Origin: Allocoprobacillus halotolerans
GTDB taxonomy: Bacteria; Bacillota_I; Bacilli_A; Erysipelotrichales; Coprobacillaceae
Direction: 5' to 3'
DNA: 64,000 nucleotides
Assembly (NCBI RefSeq): GCF_024399475.1
Contig: NZ_CP101620.1
Coordinates: 2,337,608-2,401,607, forward strand
In this document: piece after piece, positions 28,293 through 51,076 of the stretch
How the letters are laid out: each line of letters starts with the position of its first letter
Position numbering within the stretch: position 1 is the stretch's first letter
The notes under the pieces: model-generated
What the model was told of the DNA's origin: nothing
The model's database searches: none
The model's input: the letters and a program-made list of their open reading frames with translations, nothing else
Position numbers and translations under genes: made by a program

Positions 28293-30055
28293 ATGAGTAA
28301 AATTATTGGTATTGATTTAGGAACAACAAATAGTTGTATGTCTTTTATTGAAAATGGAAAAACATCCATTATTCCTAATAGTGAAGGAGCCAAGACAACA
28401 CCAAGTATTGTTGCTTTTACAAATGATGGTCAAAGACTTGTTGGAGAAAGTGCCAAAAGACAAGCAGTGACGAATCCAATGGGAACTATTTCATCTATTA
28501 AACGTGAAATGGGAACAAATTATAAAAAGAAGATTGGTCAACGCGAATATACACCTCAAGAAATTTCAGCGATGATTTTACAGAAATTAAAAATAGATGC
28601 TGAAATCTATTTAGGAGAATCTGTTAAGCAGGCCGTTATTACAGTTCCAGCTTATTTTAATGATGCACAACGTCAAGCAACGAAAGATGCCGGGAGAATT
28701 GCAGGTTTAGAGGTTTTAAGAATTATTAATGAGCCAACAGCTGCAGCATTGGCATATGGCTTAGAAAATAGTTATGGACAGAAGATGATGGTCTTTGATT
28801 TAGGTGGAGGTACATTTGATGTTTCTATTATTGAGATTGGTAATGGTGTCATTGAAGTTCTTTCCACTTCTGGGGATAATCATCTTGGCGGTGATGATTT
28901 TAATGAAGCATTAGCTCAATATATTTTGACTGAATTTCAAAAAAGTTCAGGAATTTCATTAAAAAATGATTTAATGGCGATGCAACGTGTTAAAGAAGCT
29001 GCTGAAAAAGCTAAGATTGAATTATCATCAATGGTTTCAACAGTTGTATTACTACCATTTATTACGACAACTGCTGCTGGACCACAGAACTTAGAAATGA
29101 CAATTACAAGAGATGTTTTTAATCGTATCACTAAAGATCTAGTAGAAAGAACAATCTTACCAATGCAAAATGCTTTGAATGATGCACGTCTATTACCAGC
29201 TGAATTAAATAAGATTATTTTGGTTGGAGGTTCTTCACGTATTCCTGCTGTTCAAGATAAAATTAAAGAAGTGACAGGAATTGTTCCGAGTAAATCATTG
29301 AATCCTGATGAATGTGTAGCAATGGGTGCAGGGATTCAAGGTGGTAAATTATCAGGTGATGTCACAGCAATGGGAAATTATGATGTTTTATTGCTAGATG
29401 TTACACCATTAACATTGTCTATTGAAACAGTGGGTGGCGTTGCAACACCTTTGATTGAACGTAATACACCTATTCCTACAAGTCATAGCCAGATTTTTAC
29501 AACTTCATCAAACTTTCAAACACAGGTCGAAATTAATGTTTTACAAGGAGAAAGACCTTTGGCTAAGGACAATAAGAGTCTTGGGAAATTCAAATTGAAA
29601 AAATCAAACGTGCAATGCGAGGTGTTCCACAGATTGAAGTCACTTTTGATATTGATGTCAATGGAATTGTGAGTGTTTCAGCAAAAGATTTAGCAAGTGG
29701 AAACATGCAAAGTATTACGATTGAAAATGGTTCACATATGTCAGATGCAGATATTGAAAGAGCTATTCACGAAGCCCAACAGTATGAACAACAAGATGCC
29801 AAAACAAAAGAAAGACTTGTATTTAAAAATGATTTAGAAACTTTAATGTTACGTGTTGAAAATGGGTTAGCGAAACATCATAAAGAAATAGACAAAACAG
29901 TAAAAACACAAATCAAAAATGAATTAAGTCAATTAAAGAAGATGACAAAAAAAGTTCAATTTGAAACATGTCCAGATGCCAATTTCCAAGAAATTAAAGA
30001 AGCAAAACAAAGATTAGAAGATAGTGCAGCTTTCTTATTGGCAATGGGCGAATAA
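28293..30055 (+). CDS. Hsp70-family chaperone, DnaK paralogue (HscC-like), frameshifted
   Basis: ATP-driven chaperone. The nucleotide-binding domain has [47 protein letters not shown] and [13 protein letters not shown]. The substrate domain follows ([26 protein letters not shown]). A -1 shift in the A6 run at 29598-29603 separates it from [20 protein letters not shown]. Joined length is about 587 residues, shorter than DnaK, with a reduced helical lid. It sits with a J protein and DUF5685 rather than with hrcA-grpE-dnaJ, so it is probably a specialised second Hsp70. RBS AAGGAG precedes the ATG. Confidence 0.9.
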
Positions 30056-30102: not shown

Positions 30103-31032
30103 ATGGAAATAAGATTTGCAAGAAAAGAAGACTTAGAACAATTGGCCAAAATTGAAAAAGAGTGTTTTCCTATACAGGAAGCAGCAAATGTAACCCAGTT
30201 GATAGAACGCTTACAAGCTTTTCATCAATGTTTTTTAGTAGCTGAAATAGCAGGGAAAATCACTGGTTTTATCAATGGGGCGATGATTTCAAATCAAACA
30301 ATATCAGATGAAATGTTTACAGATGTATCATTTCATCATATTCATCATCCTAATCAAAGTGTGTTTAGTTTAGCGGTTTTACCAGCTTTTAGGCATATGG
30401 GTATTGCTCAAAAATTAATGCAAGCTTTTATTGATTTAGCTATGACTCGTCAAAAAAAGGCAATAGTCTTAACTTGTAAAGAAAATCTCATTTCTTTTTA
30501 TCAACAATTTGGATATATAAGCCTAGGAATTTCAAATTCTACACATGGCGGGGCTATATGGTATGATATGATTTTAAAATTAGATCAGAAATACCATACC
30601 TTTATTCCTATGCAATTTTATCATTTAAACGATTGCGTACGCTTGTTTCAGCAATGTTTTGAAAAGGAACCGTGGCATGAAAAATGGACATACGAACAAT
30701 CCTTTCAACGTTTAAAAGAAATGATTGTTGCACCATATGTTTTTTCATATGTTCTTTATCAAGATGGACAATTAGCAGGAATGATTATAGGACGTCAAAT
30801 GACCTATATGGAAAGAAAAGAATTATGGATTGATGAAGTTTGTATTTCACCACAATTTCAAGGACACCATTTAGGAAATAATTTACTTGATTTCGTAAAA
30901 GAAGAATGTAAAAAAAGAAATATAAAAACTTTAGTATTACAAACTATACGTGGTTTTTTAAGTGATCATTTCTATAGTCAAAATGGTTTTCATATACAAG
31001 AACATTTAGTAAGCATGAAATGTGATATATAA
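30103..31032 (+). CDS. Tandem GNAT acetyltransferase
   Basis: A 309-residue protein with two GNAT folds. The first (1-160) has VFSLAVLPAFRHMGIAQKLM, the acetyl-CoA loop, and ends FYQQFGYISLGIS, like arylalkylamine-type enzymes. The second (165-309) has IDEVCISPQFQGHHLGNNLL and FYSQNGFHIQEH. Both keep the (Q/R)xxG(x)(A/G) pyrophosphate loop (RHMGIA, QGHHLG), so both could be active. The substrate is unknown. It follows the Hsp70 gene after a weak hairpin (about 30056-30085). Confidence 0.85.
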   Translation: MEIRFARKEDLEQLAKIEKECFPIQEAANVTQLIERLQAFHQCFLVAEIAGKITGFINGAMISNQTISDEMFTDVSFHHIHHPNQSVFSLAVLPAFRHMGIAQKLMQAFIDLAMTRQKKAIVLTCKENLISFYQQFGYISLGISNSTHGGAIWYDMILKLDQKYHTFIPMQFYHLNDCVRLFQQCFEKEPWHEKWTYEQSFQRLKEMIVAPYVFSYVLYQDGQLAGMIIGRQMTYMERKELWIDEVCISPQFQGHHLGNNLLDFVKEECKKRNIKTLVLQTIRGFLSDHFYSQNGFHIQEHLVSMKCDI

Positions 31033-31063
31033 AAATTCTCATATCAAATATGAGAATTTTTTA
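31031..31063. terminator. Bidirectional terminator
   Basis: AAAATTCTCATA and TATGAGAATTTT form a 12-bp stem around TCAAA, with T and A runs on each side. It serves the GNAT gene and the convergent repressor gene, whose stop it overlaps. Confidence 0.8.
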
Positions 31064-31657
31064 AAAATATGTTTTTGTATAAACAACTTTTCCAATAATG
31101 TGAACTGGTAAAGTAGCGACTTCTTCATTTGAGAAATATCGATTTTCAACAAGTGGATTGGTTGCTTCTAAAATGAGCATATCTGGCTTTTTGATAATAC
31201 GTTTTACTGTGACTTCTTCGCCACCAATCATAACTACAGCAATATCACCAGTTGAGGCATATGAGCACTGTTTGATAAGAGCCAAATCACCATCCATGAT
31301 ACCTGATCCTGTCATTGAATCACCTTGGATTTGTAAAAAGTAATCACCTTTATAAAAATCTTCCTCAGTAACTTCTTCTTCACCCATATAATTATTTTCA
31401 CCATACATATCATAGCCTGCTTTTGCATAACCTAAAATAGGACGCTTCAAATGCATTGAAGTCCCTTTGATAATGGGTTCTACATCATATCCTAAAAGTT
31501 CATTTAAACGCTTTAAAGTATCATCTTGAATTCTTTTGACATCACCACTAATCCAACGACTTACAGTTGATTTAGTCACACCAAGTTTTTGAGCAATTTC
31601 ATCATTTGTCAACTGAAATCTATATTTGTAATCTTTTATAATATCTTTTAGCTCCAT
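31061..31657 (-). CDS. LexA-fold (XRE HTH + S24 peptidase) self-cleaving repressor
   Basis: 198 residues. The N-terminal Cro/cI-type HTH (1-60) has TNDEIAQKLGVTKSTVSRWI. The C-terminal S24 domain has the scissile Ala-Gly in GYAKAGYD, the nucleophile in QIQGDSMTGSGIMDGD and the lysine in EEVTVKRIIKK. Proteins of this build (cI and LexA-like) cleave themselves on RecA filaments during DNA damage. It is not in a prophage here. It diverges from a gene that looks derived from a Y-family polymerase, and TATGCA-containing sites overlap both promoters. This suggests it represses itself and that gene. Confidence 0.85.
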   Translation of the reverse strand: MELKDIIKDYKYRFQLTNDEIAQKLGVTKSTVSRWISGDVKRIQDDTLKRLNELLGYDVEPIIKGTSMHLKRPILGYAKAGYDMYGENNYMGEEEVTEEDFYKGDYFLQIQGDSMTGSGIMDGDLALIKQCSYASTGDIAVVMIGGEEVTVKRIIKKPDMLILEATNPLVENRYFSNEEVATLPVHIIGKVVYTKTYF

Positions 31658-31669
31658 AGTATACCTCCT

Positions 31670-31679
31670 ATATGCATAT
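31670..31679. promoter_or_regulatory. Candidate repressor site at the repressor's own ribosome-binding region
   Basis: ATATGCATAT is a perfect 10-bp palindrome just upstream of the repressor RBS. It contains the TATGCA half site seen again in the 31732-31759 repeat. Confidence 0.4.
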
Positions 31680-31731
31680 TATAATATAAAATACATCAAA
31701 AATAAATAAAAAATAAAAAAATATAAAATAA

Positions 31732-31774
31732 GTTGCATAAAATAGTTGAAATATGCAACATTATCCTTTATAAT
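31732..31774 (+). promoter_or_regulatory. Promoter with overlapping inverted-repeat operator
   Basis: GTTGCATA (31732-31739) and TATGCAAC (31752-31759) are perfect 8-base arms 12 bases apart. The promoter boxes TTGAAA (31746-31751) and TATAAT (31769-31774), spacer 17, interlock with the repeat: the right arm fills the spacer next to the -35 box. A bound repressor would block polymerase. Confidence 0.6.
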
Positions 31775-31795
31775 AGAAAACGAGGAGTGAGAGCT

Positions 31796-32698
31796 ATGTT
31801 AAAAACATTCATTGGTTATATTTGTTTGGAAGATGTGATTTGTCAATTAGAGGAGAAAAGAAATCAATATTTAAAAAAGAGATTTCATCAACAGCAACTT
31901 AACAGTTTTTATGATTGTTATGAAGGTGATTTTTACAAAGAAAAAATAAAAAATATTTTATTCGAATATTGTAATGATATCTTTGAAGAAAACACATATG
32001 ATATTTTCTTTGATTTAACAAAATCTCAATATTTTTTAGATGAAGATTGTTTACAATTGATGAAAACAATTGAAAAAAGAATTGCTGATGAATGTCGTAT
32101 GGAAATTCATATAGCAATGAGTTTTCATAAAGATTTTGCAAAATGGATTTATCATCATGGTTGTGATCAACATCGTATTTTAAGTTATCAACAAGCTAAA
32201 AAGATATTTGGAAAGAATTTTTGTCAGGAAAAATTAAAAGAAACAACTTTGCCTGTAAAAGAGAAAATGACCCTTCCTCAATTATATGGTCAAGTTTCAC
32301 AAACTGAATTTACGCATTTTCGTGAGGCGTGTTCTATTGCTGAAAAGTTAACATTGGACTTGGTAACACAGCTCAAAGATAAAGACTATGGAATTCGTCA
32401 TATTCAGATAATTTTACTTGATTCAAAACTCCATTTTTATAAAAAGGAAGAAATATTAAGAAATTATACTAATATATATAGTAATATTTATCATACAGTT
32501 GTTAAACTTTTACAAACTATCTCTTATCAGAATCAATATTTAGAAATGAAAATATTATTATGCGACTTTAAAGATTATCAAGAGGAAACATCATTATTAT
32601 ATAAAGATAAAAATACGCGTTTTGATAAATGGAAATTTTTGAAACCTCACTATCATTATTCGTTAGAAAATCATTCATTACTTGGAAAAACAGTTTAG
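31796..32698 (+). CDS. Divergent Y-family DNA polymerase-like protein, probably inactive
   Basis: 300 residues, no clear family at first sight. Residues 47-120 read like the second half of a Y-family palm: YKEKIKNILFEYCNDIFEEN, then YDIFFDLTKSQ (where UmuC/DinB have S-x-DE-x-hLD-h-T), then a helix and IAMSFHKDFAKWIY (compare the family's siG-x-s-x-x-K-x-hAK). Residues 200-285 fit the little-finger domain (EKLTLDLVTQLKDKDYGIRH, NIYHTVVKLLQTI, YLEMKILLCDF). The first ~60-80 residues with the DxDxFFA metal motif, the DE pair and most of the thumb are missing. If right, it cannot polymerise and may bind DNA or a partner. ATG 31796 follows GAGGAG. Inference from motif pattern only. Confidence 0.45.
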   Translation: MLKTFIGYICLEDVICQLEEKRNQYLKKRFHQQQLNSFYDCYEGDFYKEKIKNILFEYCNDIFEENTYDIFFDLTKSQYFLDEDCLQLMKTIEKRIADECRMEIHIAMSFHKDFAKWIYHHGCDQHRILSYQQAKKIFGKNFCQEKLKETTLPVKEKMTLPQLYGQVSQTEFTHFREACSIAEKLTLDLVTQLKDKDYGIRHIQIILLDSKLHFYKKEEILRNYTNIYSNIYHTVVKLLQTISYQNQYLEMKILLCDFKDYQEETSLLYKDKNTRFDKWKFLKPHYHYSLENHSLLGKTV

Positions 32699-32732
32699 TT
32701 CTTGATGATTTCTCAGTAAGGAGAAAAGAACT

Positions 32733-32999
32733 ATGTGTGATATGGATAATGTTTTAAAAGATATATATACTTCTGATACGATTTTAAGTCATGATGAAGA
32801 AATGATGCTTGAACAAGTGCATATTCGTTATTTTGATTTTATGGATCGTCTACATGAACATGTCGTTAATGGACAAGTCACTTTAAATGAAGAAGAAATT
32901 GACGATTTGGAAGATTGTGTAAATGAATTTATATTTGAATATGGTTTTATTCAGTTTAAGCGTGGAATTCATTTAGCAACAGCCATTGAACATGCATAA
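32733..32999 (+). CDS. Small helical protein, DUF6809-like
   Basis: 88 residues, all helical and acidic, with an ending EYGFIQFKRGIHLATAIEHA that resembles the F-x-x-GF-x-x-(G/K)-x-x-h-x-x-E close of DUF6809 proteins. The function of that family is unknown. AAGGAG precedes the ATG. It lies 34 bases after the polymerase-like gene with no terminator between and a strong one after it. It is therefore likely in the same, repressor-controlled transcript. Confidence 0.65.
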   Translation: MCDMDNVLKDIYTSDTILSHDEEMMLEQVHIRYFDFMDRLHEHVVNGQVTLNEEEIDDLEDCVNEFIFEYGFIQFKRGIHLATAIEHA

Positions 33000-33008
33000 A
33001 TAGGGAAA

Positions 33009-33039
33009 AAGGAATATTGATTGAATATTCCTTTTTTTA
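33009..33039 (+). terminator. Intrinsic terminator
   Basis: GGAATATT and AATATTCC pair around GATTG and are followed by T7. Confidence 0.88.
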
Positions 33040-36312: not shown

Positions 36313-36319
36313 ATAAAAA

Positions 36320-36574
36320 AGAAACCAATGAGTGGGAGATAAAACTTAAAGATGTACTTCAAGAGAGTCTAGGATGGTGGAAGCTAGATAGTGGCAGTTA
36401 GGTAAATGGACCCACGAGGGCAAAGGGGAAAGGTAACGAGTATCCTGCGACGTGAGCTTACGTTACAAAGCAAAAATGTGTTGGCATTTTAGTGAGTGGG
36501 TTATTTTATATAACCAATAAAGGTGGTACCGCAGATGATAACATCTGTCCTTTGATGGACAGGTGTTTTTTGTT
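36320..36574 (+). promoter_or_regulatory. T-box leader, tryptophan specifier
   Basis: The T-box sequence AAGGTGGTACCGC is at 36520-36532. It is followed by the terminator ACATCTGTCC/GGACAGGTGT (36541-36566) with T6. Stem I has GGATGGTGGAAGCTAGATAG. Aligned with the tyrS leader, the specifier is TGG at 36407-36409, the tryptophan codon, in AAATGGACCCACGAGGGC. It controls the ABC importer downstream, which marks that importer as a tryptophan (or precursor) uptake system. Confidence 0.88.
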
Positions 36575-36674: not shown

Positions 36675-37649
36675 ATGAAAAAATTATTTAAATATTTATT
36701 AATAGCATTATGTGTAGTTTCATTAATGACAGGTTGTCAAAATACAAATTCTAAAATTAAAAAAGTAGCAATTGTTCAATATATAGAACATACATCATTA
36801 GATACAATAAAAGCTGCTTTTGATCAACAAATGGAAGATTTGGGATATGAAGATGGTGAAAATGTTGAGTACATTTTTAAAAACGCTCAAGGTGATAACA
36901 ATATTGCAGCAAGCATTACCCAAACATTTCAATCTGAAGATCCAGATGTTGTGGTAGCAATCGCAACACCTGTTGCCCAATCTGTTGCATCACTTTCAAA
37001 AACGACTCCGATTGTTTTTGCAGCAGTCAGTGATCCAGTGGGTGCAAAATTGACATCATCTTTAGAAAAACCAGATAAAAATATAACAGGAACAAGTGAT
37101 GAAATCCAAGTTGATTTGATTTTAGATAAAGCTTTAGAAGTGAATCCTGATTTAAAAACTTTAGGTGTGATTTATAATAAAGGTGAAGCAAATTCAGTAA
37201 CCAATATTCAAAAAGCTAAAGATTATGCAAAGAAACATGATTTAACAATCAAAGAAGCAACAATTACAAATGTGAATGAAGTTCAAAGTGCTATTGATGT
37301 TTTAGCAAGTCAATGTGATGCTGTCTTTGCACCTAATGATAATACTGTAGCCAGTGCTATGAATGTTGTTAGTCATGCTTGTATTGAGGCTAAAGTTCCA
37401 CTTTATGTAGGAGCTGATTCAATGGTTCAAGACGGAGGTTTTTTAAGTGTTGGTATTAATTATGAAGAATTAGGAAAAGAAACAGCCAATATGGTTGATC
37501 AAGTATTAAAAGGAACAAATGTGAGTGATATACCAGTGAAAGTGTTTAAAGAAAATTTAAATATTTATGTTAATGATGATGTAATGAATCAAATAGGTAT
37601 TTCATTACCAGAAAGTATTTTACAAGACGAAGCATTACAAATGATGTAG
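36675..37649 (+). CDS. ABC importer substrate-binding lipoprotein (TrpX-like)
   Basis: 324-residue lipoprotein with signal ending SLMTGC. The body is a periplasmic-binding fold of the 'ABC_sub_bind' family: VAIVQYIEHTSLDTIKAAF, PDVVVAIATPVAQSVAS, PIVFAAVSDPVGAKL, AVFAPNDNTVASAM, VPLYVGADSMVQDGGFLSVG. In streptococci related TrpX proteins belong to tryptophan transporters. Here the T-box with a Trp specifier supports the same substrate. AAGGAG precedes ATG 36675. It is first of three genes in one operon. Confidence 0.9.
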   Translation: MKKLFKYLLIALCVVSLMTGCQNTNSKIKKVAIVQYIEHTSLDTIKAAFDQQMEDLGYEDGENVEYIFKNAQGDNNIAASITQTFQSEDPDVVVAIATPVAQSVASLSKTTPIVFAAVSDPVGAKLTSSLEKPDKNITGTSDEIQVDLILDKALEVNPDLKTLGVIYNKGEANSVTNIQKAKDYAKKHDLTIKEATITNVNEVQSAIDVLASQCDAVFAPNDNTVASAMNVVSHACIEAKVPLYVGADSMVQDGGFLSVGINYEELGKETANMVDQVLKGTNVSDIPVKVFKENLNIYVNDDVMNQIGISLPESILQDEALQMM

Positions 37650-37662
37650 AGGTGATACATTT

Positions 37663-38523
37663 ATGAATCAGATTGTTATTATAGGAGCATTAGAGTTAGG
37701 TGGTATCTTTGCAATCATGTCACTTGGCTTATATATAAGTTATAAAGTTTTAAACCTTCCAGATTTAACTGTTGATGGAAGTTTTACTCTAGGTTGTGCA
37801 GTCAGTGCTGTATTGACTTTATCAGGTCATCCATTTTTAGGATTATTATTAGCTTTTGTATCTGGTATGATGGCTGGACTTATCACAGGACTTTTAACAA
37901 CCAAGTTAAAAATCGCATCATTGTTAGCCGGTATTCTAACTATGACAGGGCTGTATTCTATTAATTTAAAAATCATGAATGATTCACCTAATATTTCATT
38001 GTTTGATTGTTCAACTATTTTTACTTCTTTTTCATTCTTTAAAGATTATACACAACTGATTTTAATTGTCATTTTTGTTTTCATTATTTTTCTTTGTCTT
38101 AACTATTTTTTAAAAACGCAGTTTGGACTGGCCTTACGTGCTTGTGGGGATAATGAAGATATGGTCAAAGCGTCATCTATTGATGCTGATTTGATGAAAA
38201 TCATTGGACTTACACTTGCAAATGGTTTAGTTGCATTATCAGGAGCTATCTATGCTCAACATCAATCATTTGCTGATAGTCAAAGTGGAACAGGCATGAT
38301 GGTTATTGGATTAGCAAGTATCATTATTGGAATGGCGTTTATTAAAAAAGATCAGATTTTTTATCAGTTATTAGCAGTCATATTAGGTGCTGTGATTTAT
38401 CGAGGAATATTGACAATTGCTTTACAAATAGGAGTTCCTTCAACAGATTTAAAATTACTGTCAGCACTTTTGGTTGTGGTCGCTTTGATTTTCACAAAAT
38501 TGAAAAAGGGGAGGGTTAAATAA
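37663..38523 (+). CDS. ABC importer permease (TrpY-like)
   Basis: 286-residue inner-membrane permease of the branched-chain type, about eight helices. It has LGLYISYKVLNLPDLTVDGS near the start and LRACGDNEDMVKASSIDADL, the ATPase-coupling loop with its conserved Gly/Ala. It lies 13 bases after the binding-protein gene and shares one base with the ATPase start (TAATG). It forms the channel for the presumed tryptophan importer. Confidence 0.9.
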   Translation: MNQIVIIGALELGGIFAIMSLGLYISYKVLNLPDLTVDGSFTLGCAVSAVLTLSGHPFLGLLLAFVSGMMAGLITGLLTTKLKIASLLAGILTMTGLYSINLKIMNDSPNISLFDCSTIFTSFSFFKDYTQLILIVIFVFIIFLCLNYFLKTQFGLALRACGDNEDMVKASSIDADLMKIIGLTLANGLVALSGAIYAQHQSFADSQSGTGMMVIGLASIIIGMAFIKKDQIFYQLLAVILGAVIYRGILTIALQIGVPSTDLKLLSALLVVVALIFTKLKKGRVK

Positions 38524-39305
38524 TGTTAGAACTACAAGATATTTCTGTTGTTTTTAATCCTGATACGATTCATGAAAAAGTTGCTTTATCACATATTCAT
38601 CTGCAAATACAAAAAGGTGATTTTGTCACAATTATTGGAAGTAATGGTGCAGGAAAATCTACGTTGTTTCAAACAATCTGTGGCGCAATTACTCCCCAAC
38701 AGGGACGCATTTATCTTGAACATCAAGACATTACATCTTTAAAAGAACATAAGCGTTCACGTTTTATTGGTCGCCTTTTTCAAGATCCTCTAAAGGGAAC
38801 AGCTCCTTCAATGACAATTGCAGAGAATTTATCACTGGCAAGTTGTCATGGACATTATTTTCGTTTAACTCCTATTTCATTAAAACAACGTCATCTGATG
38901 CAAGAAGCCTTAAAAGAATTGGATCTTGGATTGGAAGAACGTATGGATACAAAAGTGGGTGTTCTTTCAGGAGGACAACGTCAGGCTTTATCGTTATTGA
39001 TGGCAACTTATGGGAAACCACAACTTTTATTGTTAGATGAGCATACGGCTGCATTAGACCCTCAAACTGCTCAAAAAGTTTTAGATTTAACAGCAAAGAT
39101 TGTGAAAAAAGAAAAAATGACAACATTAATGATCACACATAATATGGAAGATGCTTTAAAGTATGGTCAAAAGATATTGATTATGAAAGATGGAAAAATC
39201 ATAGATTTCATTGATGAAAAACGTAAACAGGATTTAACAGTTGACAAACTGATTCATTTGTATTCATCTAAAACACATGATTATAATGATCGTTTATTAT
39301 TATAA
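38523..39305 (+). CDS. ABC importer ATPase (TrpZ-like)
   Basis: 260-residue ATP-binding subunit. Walker A GSNGAGKSTLF, Q-loop GRLFQDPLKGT, signature LSGGQRQALSLL, Walker B LLLLDEHTAALDP and switch His MITHNMED are all present. The Walker B glutamate is conserved (DEH). It completes the importer with the two genes before it and is followed by a strong terminator. Confidence 0.93.
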   Translation: MLELQDISVVFNPDTIHEKVALSHIHLQIQKGDFVTIIGSNGAGKSTLFQTICGAITPQQGRIYLEHQDITSLKEHKRSRFIGRLFQDPLKGTAPSMTIAENLSLASCHGHYFRLTPISLKQRHLMQEALKELDLGLEERMDTKVGVLSGGQRQALSLLMATYGKPQLLLLDEHTAALDPQTAQKVLDLTAKIVKKEKMTTLMITHNMEDALKYGQKILIMKDGKIIDFIDEKRKQDLTVDKLIHLYSSKTHDYNDRLLL

Positions 39306-45498: not shown

Positions 45499-45605
45499 TA
45501 CCGCAAATATAATAAGCGGAAAGCCGTATACATCGAGAGGTGTACGTGTGATTTGGGAGGAAGGGGATGCAAGTCCTGCAAAGGATGAGCTGAACCTTAC
45601 CTCAT
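45499..45605 (+). ncRNA. 3' end of a group II intron (domains V and VI)
   Basis: AGCCGTAT...ATCGAGAGG...TGTACGTGTG at 45522-45551 has the domain V layout: AGC triad at 45522-45524, two short helices and a GA-rich tetraloop-like end. Domain VI and the intron end follow, and the VirD4 frame resumes at about 45606. Without the 5' domains it cannot splice. Confidence 0.65.
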
Positions 45606-50849: not shown

Positions 50850-51076
50850 AGAATATAATAGACGTTGATAAGGAGGAGTACATTTTGTATTCTTATAGAG
50901 AGTCTCTGGTAGGTGGAAAGGGATAGAAGAAGAAATGGAAGGTAGCCTTGGAGTTTGTTTTCTGAACATGAAAGTAGGTAAACACGTAGAACTGCGTTAA
51001 AGTTTTGAGGTATACGGTTAGTATATAAATTAAGGTGGTACCACGAACATTCGTCCTTATGCGAGTGTTCTTTTTT
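50850..51076 (+). promoter_or_regulatory. T-box leader, valine specifier
   Basis: T-box AAGGTGGTACCACG at 51032-51045. Terminator GAACATTCG/CGAGTGTTC at 51045-51070 with T6. Stem I contains GGTAGGTGGAAAGGG. Aligned with the tyrS leader by the shared CTTGGAG context, the specifier is GTA at 50942-50944, a valine codon. A TATAAT box lies near 50857, right beside the end of the conjugative element. It governs the next two genes including valS. Confidence 0.88.

Follow-up and report, generated by a model that had tools for sequence, protein, structure and literature searches.

The locus described here encodes a gutted, catalytically dead homolog of the Y-family (DinB-class) DNA polymerases, which diverges from an autocleavable XRE-S24 repressor and is followed by a gene for a small acidic protein. 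Computation establishes the identity and the descent of the gutted protein, the loss of its motifs, the selection that acts upon it, and the operator that it shares with a remote UmuC operon. On balance, we lean towards reading the locus as a minimal SOS circuit of the HdiR type, in which a former DinB-class polymerase now serves as a non-catalytic partner or modulator of translesion synthesis. Throughout, the window means the whole stretch of 64,000 nucleotides that was analysed, and the features of the locus within it are collected in Table 1.

Table 1. Features of the repressor-polymerase locus, in window coordinates.
Feature	Position	Strand	Basis
Inverted repeat AAAAATTCTCATAT-CAA-ATATGAGAATTTTT, probable bidirectional terminator, between GNAT and repressor genes	31031..31061		read from sequence
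XRE-S24 (HdiR/LexA-like) autocleavable repressor, 198 aa	31061..31657	-	Pfam domains, residue conservation
ATATGCATAT palindrome adjoining the repressor start, candidate second (autoregulatory) site	31670..31679		conserved core
Operator GTTGCAT-N14-ATGCAAC, probable repressor binding site	31732..31759		palindrome conservation
Promoter TTGAAA-17-TATAAT, -35 within the operator	31746..31774	+	11/12 matches
Gutted, catalytically dead Y-family (DinB-class) homolog, 300 aa	31796..32698	+	Pfam, profile-profile, predicted fold, selection
Acidic helical protein, 88 aa, predicted helix hairpin	32733..32999	+	alignment, structure prediction
AAAAAGGAATATT-GATTG-AATATTCCTTTTT, likely terminator of the two-gene operon	33006..33036	+	read from sequence

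The Y-family identity of the gutted protein

The gutted protein consists of a palm remnant (about residues 1-121), a little finger (about 158-262) and a disordered tail (266-300). Its likely start is the ATG at 31796, and the 321-aa frame opening on TTG is a mechanical extension only. In Pfam, weak but colinear matches to IMS (E 6e-4, profile positions 76-144 of 148) and IMS_C (E 0.018) are obtained, and the ortholog at locus L028 exceeds the gathering cut-offs of both families, at 27.7 and 23.1 bits. Profile-profile comparison with the full-length polymerases gives a probability of 99.5% (E 2.5e-22, 252 columns). The predicted structure (pLDDT 77.6) matches solved Y-family polymerases with a Foldseek E of 2.7e-14 and a Z of 15.6 over 244 residues; the alignment behind the model included full-length polymerases, and the evidence from fold and from sequence is to that extent not fully independent. 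The global rmsd of 11.4 reflects a differing placement of the two domains, and residues 1-145, taken alone, superimpose on 1im4, the catalytic fragment of Dbh, with an rmsd of 3.9 A across 137 residues. A sequence search of the protein against the PDB gave no matches. Both profile and fold therefore place a palm and a little finger in this protein, and the fold predicted for 31796-32698 is a Y-family fold and not an unrelated one. The preliminary description had proposed a dead Y-family relic of 300 residues with a palm and little finger pattern followed by a DNA-binding-like domain; the relic and the pattern stand, and the supposed additional domain is the little finger itself. The three ORFs of that description lie where it had placed them.

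What has been lost is extensive. The catalytic triad D/D/E reads C/Y/D in the window protein and D/N/D, C/N/D, N/D/D and Y/N/D in the other four orthologs, so that it is broken in all five. The fingers, about 43 residues, are cut down to 7-13, the thumb columns are mostly deleted, and the protein gives no IMS_HHH match. The combination of D, D and E with fingers and thumb that marks an active Y-family polymerase is thus absent. Additionally, the clamp motif (QLSLF-type) and the RecA-NT motif, both present in intact homologs, are missing from each of the five gutted proteins; in the intact relatives, we assigned the RecA-NT motif ourselves, from its description in PMC6511836.

The loss extends to a neighbouring gene of 83 aa, a companion found at 20 of the 26 intact loci examined and at none of six dead loci, a count that takes in some incomplete loci and in which the dead ones stem from only two events. 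At L031 (5573-5824), L034 (5381-5632) and similar loci, the companion is 73-99 aa long, beta-rich-looking, in most cases coupled to the stop codon of the intact polymerase, and follows the pattern YKRYVDV..LKPL..W..IDKIL..VGGCG..Y.C. No family match was found for it in Pfam (one protein tested) or NCBIfam (two tested), and it is possibly a UmuD/YolD-like subunit.

Descent in place from a full-length polymerase

The same arrangement is present in all five genomes examined of the genus Massilimicrobiota (Erysipelotrichales). At the same locus, neighbouring genera (G027, G032, G033, G006) carry a DinB-class polymerase that has its full length of 420-427 aa and is mostly intact, and for this reason the window gene, as judged from the comparison of loci, is a shrunken descendant of such a polymerase. 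Gutted and full-length loci have as common neighbours the DnaK paralog, the GNAT gene, the repressor and the 88-aa protein, and in part HisJ. The polymerases at L029, L030, L031 and L034 share locus, repressor, operator and 88-aa protein with the window; unlike the window protein, those at L030, L031 and L034 keep the D/D/E triad, the clamp and RecA-NT motifs and the 83-aa companion. The form of about 300 aa is limited to the five genus genomes among 316 genomes of the order, and the other reported matches lie in open frames of at least 407 aa. In the protein tree, the gutted clade sits on a long branch and is not placeable among the intact lineages. No relatives of the gutted protein were found in viral contigs or plasmids, which gives no sign of a mobile origin. 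The GNAT gene of the window (30103-31032) encodes a double GNAT protein, 309 aa in the genus, and corresponds to two adjacent genes in G033, G032 and G027.

The homolog in G033 (L029 6776-8038) differs from the window protein in being of full length and apparently dead: its second catalytic Asp has become Asn (D/N/E), its clamp motif is eroded, and the 83-aa companion is absent. Its branch length is 0.53, compared with 0.06 in G032 and 0.12 in G027. Since G032, of the same genus, is intact, G033 probably represents a second inactivation, independent of the loss in Massilimicrobiota, a point for which the poorly resolved repressor tree gives no proof.

Selection on the gutted gene

In the G002-G004 pair, the omega of the gutted gene is 0.264 (LRT 30.4 against omega = 1), with 0.31 for the palm and 0.25 for the little finger; the repressor and the 88-aa gene of this pair give 0.009 and 0.086. 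An omega of 1 is rejected in all 10 pairs of the gutted gene (LRT 30-209, the other nine lying at 65-209), and, with dS saturated in nine of the ten, the value of omega rests mainly on G002-G004. By simulation under neutrality, about 11-19 stop codons would be expected, and the five lineages have none. Within the genus, the gutted protein is the fastest-evolving of the locus at 44-55% identity, followed by the 88-aa protein at 58-84% and the repressor at 90-97%. Because omega is well below 1 and the stops of the neutral simulation are absent, the protein, on this codon-level evidence, is kept by purifying selection, under a constraint weaker than that on the neighbouring genes and with slow decay still conceivable. 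A recent pseudogene or a sequencing artefact was considered and rejected, as five genomes have the same architecture with omega below 1. The non-catalytic role put forward in the preliminary description is made likely by this purifying selection (omega 0.26).

The repressor

The repressor combines an XRE-type helix-turn-helix domain (HTH_3) with Peptidase_S24 (Pfam, E 1.9e-22). The intact Ala-Gly, Ser and Lys of a LexA-like switch had been noticed from the start, and they hold up: Ala80-Gly81, Ser114 and Lys152 are unchanged across all 12 aligned relatives. Identity to counterparts in neighbouring genera is 67-85%. This is the sole full S24 match in the genome, with two further partial matches at 29.3 and 17.7 bits, the latter below cut-off. 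Assignment as canonical LexA was rejected, as TIGR00498 scores 67.8 bits against a cut-off of 110.95, over residues 71-192 only, and the N-terminus is of the XRE type. Canonical LexA was not found in the genome with the profile of the LexA DNA-binding domain, whose best match, at 20.3 bits, is under cut-off. That match belongs to an ORF whose 346 aa come close to the length of HrcA, which it may be.

The sequence features of an HdiR-type repressor are therefore found here: an XRE HTH joined to an S24 domain that has the Ala-Gly site and the Ser/Lys dyad, and an operator, assigned by conservation and position, both in the divergent promoter region of the repressor and at Y-family genes, in a genome where LexA was not found. 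The pairing of repressor and polymerase gene, which the preliminary description had singled out, recurs in the relatives: apart from its presence in all five genus genomes, 25 of the 30 repressor loci examined in the family face a divergent Y-family gene.

Downstream of the repressor gene, a perfect 14-bp inverted repeat probably acts as a bidirectional terminator. At the other end, the palindrome adjoining the start of the gene is a candidate second, autoregulatory site for the repressor, with its TGCATATTATA core kept across the genus and also in G027, G032 and G033.

Operator, promoter and regulon

Besides the five genus genomes, G006, G032 and G033 keep the operator palindrome; at the polymerase locus of G027, the spacer is one base shorter and one base is changed. 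Exact sites are expected by chance at 0.008-0.03 per genome. In the five genus genomes, the exact operator occurs at only two promoters, those of the dead-polymerase gene (the copy in G003 having one mismatch) and of a UmuC-YolD-like operon. Where the repressor is more diverged, the genome has a GTTTCAT-like site in the same position and lacks a GTTGCAT site, as expected if the repressor binds the operator. GTTGCAT-N14-ATGCAAC is thus likely, from its pattern of conservation, to be the operator of the XRE-S24 repressor. Other sites with a single mismatch were rejected as members of the regulon; they look like chance, are not genus-wide, and some lie within genes.

At the UmuC promoters, too, the -35 box falls within the operator and is spaced 17 bp from the -10 box. 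Promoter-like matches are no commoner in the real than in shuffled sequence, and the promoter claim therefore rests on conservation and on this identical placement at the UmuC operon.

The second operator-bearing operon contains a UmuC gene, intact in four of the five genus genomes, and then a small gene labelled YolD-like by inspection. In the window genome (L050 208-1463; G000:C1 about 327908-329157), UmuC is split into 112 and 306 aa, an interruption that may be an assembly error. The DnaK paralog of the window (28293-30055) is read as two overlapping ORFs of 459 and 146 aa, where relatives have one 587-aa ORF, and a RecN-like gene (L023 901-2558) is also split. With the DnaK paralog, the RecN-like gene and umuC all split, assembly indels are likely.

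In neighbouring genera, operator sites at L117 1501 (G027) and at L118 and L121 1501 (G032, G027) lie upstream of a DnaE-like or an S41 (CtpA-like) peptidase gene, the site upstream of the DnaE-like gene in G027 being exact. The placement of these sites suggests a wider regulon of the repressor in G027 and G032.

The 88-residue protein and the end of the operon

A small helical protein in the same transcript was part of the preliminary description, and an 88-aa ORF (32733-32999) with a predicted helix hairpin (pLDDT 82.9) bears this out. The protein is also kept beside the full-length polymerases of neighbouring genera, with 32-84% identity in the alignment. No family match above cut-off was found in Pfam or NCBIfam, and comparison with PDB folds returned no significant match, only non-significant helical ones. 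A resemblance to DUF6809 was considered and set aside, as neither Pfam nor NCBIfam supports it. Behind this gene, an inverted repeat is followed by a T run; its stem is low in G+C, so it was not reported by the scan.

Elsewhere in the window, T-box leaders (Rfam RF00230) lie at 1493-1690, 36319-36555 and 50856-51061, the second preceding an ABC-transporter-type operon at 36675-39305. At 45519-45605, in a stretch of higher G+C (39%), the catalytic core of a group II intron is matched with a score barely over the Rfam threshold.

Proposed circuit and alternatives

In the circuit that we propose, the XRE-S24 repressor would hold down its own divergent operon and the remote UmuC-YolD-like operon through matching operators over their -35 boxes. 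Following DNA damage, RecA filaments would promote self-cleavage of the repressor, as its conserved residues and the precedent of HdiR suggest (PMC8565304), and both operons would then be expressed. The first gene of the local operon once encoded a working DinB-class translesion polymerase, which in the ancestor of Massilimicrobiota lost catalysis, fingers, thumb, the clamp-binding and RecA-binding motifs and the companion gene, with the palm remnant and the little finger retained under purifying selection. The gutted protein would be made after damage and act without catalysis, its likeliest partner being UmuC or the 88-aa protein. We infer the binding and cleavage of the repressor, the induction by damage and the partner. 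A more specific version is possible and held tentatively: a polymerase converted in place under a damage switch into half a palm and a little finger, devoid of clamp and RecA motifs, which would modulate the UmuC under the same repressor, with the genus of G033 converting independently.

The alternatives differ in what the remaining protein would do. It may do nothing, with the operon maintained on account of the repressor and the 88-aa protein and the first gene a slowly decaying relic that acts as a spacer or translational leader. The rapid evolution of the gutted protein, the loss of every known functional motif and the persistence of the 88-aa protein and the repressor wherever the polymerase is dead all fit such decay, which we nevertheless find unlikely, since omega lies well under 1 in every pair, and in both domains of the unsaturated one, and five lineages are free of stops. 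A scaffold resembling ImuB, in which the dead subunit would recruit UmuC or DnaE to damaged DNA, is rather improbable. ImuB and iPolY are themselves dead Y-family subunits in SOS regulons (PMC6511836, PMC12926913), and the operator is common to the gutted gene and UmuC and, in G027, precedes the DnaE-like gene; the window protein shares the inactive Y-family core with them, but the C-terminal beta-clamp binding and RecA-NT motifs through which ImuB works are gone (0/5), and the operon consists of the gutted gene and the 88-aa gene alone, with no imuA, imuB-C or dnaE2.

Competition at the clamp, the role suggested in the preliminary description, would have the dead protein occupy the sliding clamp and limit active polymerases. 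It would agree with the retained little finger and with SOS-type co-regulation with an active polymerase, but the QLSLF-type motif of intact homologs is missing in 5/5 gutted proteins, which makes this role very improbable. With the triad broken and the clamp and RecA docking motifs lost, neither polymerisation nor the role of a clamp competitor or ImuB-type hub is supported. As the protein has none of the known docking motifs of its family, sequence indicates no partner; a non-catalytic partner of translesion synthesis, working by way of its little finger or of the 88-aa protein, would be the best remaining reading.

Relation to known systems and significance

In Lactococcus, HdiR controls itself and UmuC (PMC8565304). 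The HdiR-UmuC minimal SOS circuit of Streptococcaceae resembles the window in its HTH-S24 repressor with intact cleavage residues, in that no canonical LexA was found, and in a regulon made up of the repressor itself and Y-family genes (PMC8565304). The window differs in that one controlled polymerase is dead and gutted, in operator and in taxon, and in being known here from sequence. Dead Y-family homologs under SOS control are likewise known, namely the ImuB of DnaE2 mutasomes and the iPolY of the Streptomyces / G. bemidjiensis type, which share with the window an inactive Y-family homolog in an SOS-type regulon (PMC6511836, PMC12926913). ImuB still has a clamp motif, RecA-NT and ImuB-C, with ImuA and DnaE2 as its working partners (PMC6511836, PMC12926913), whereas the window protein has neither clamp nor RecA-NT motif, neither fingers nor thumb, and no DnaE2 partner in its operon. 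The YqjW/UvrX-YolD pairs of Bacillota (PMC6511836) resemble the second operator-bearing operon (UmuC and YolD-like), the remote partner, and not the window operon.

The statement in the preliminary description that no described system has this make-up was accordingly too strong, as ImuB, iPolY (PMC6511836, PMC12926913) and HdiR-UmuC (PMC8565304) are on record; the HdiR type of circuit and dead Y-family proteins as such are already known. What is new here is the reduction to half a palm and a little finger, the loss of the docking motifs, the conversion in place within a damage switch, and the parallel case in another genus. In open-access literature naming the group with the SOS response and LexA, an SOS circuit was not found as a topic of the titles and abstract beginnings.

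For the gut Erysipelotrichales, a likely SOS circuit is hereby described together with its operator. Docking motifs are retained in the known dead members of the Y-family, which act as hubs; the gutted protein has lost these motifs, yet selection keeps it and it persists in an operon of the damage type. The series in sister genera, from intact polymerase to full-length dead to gutted, lets one ask what a polymerase does without catalysis.
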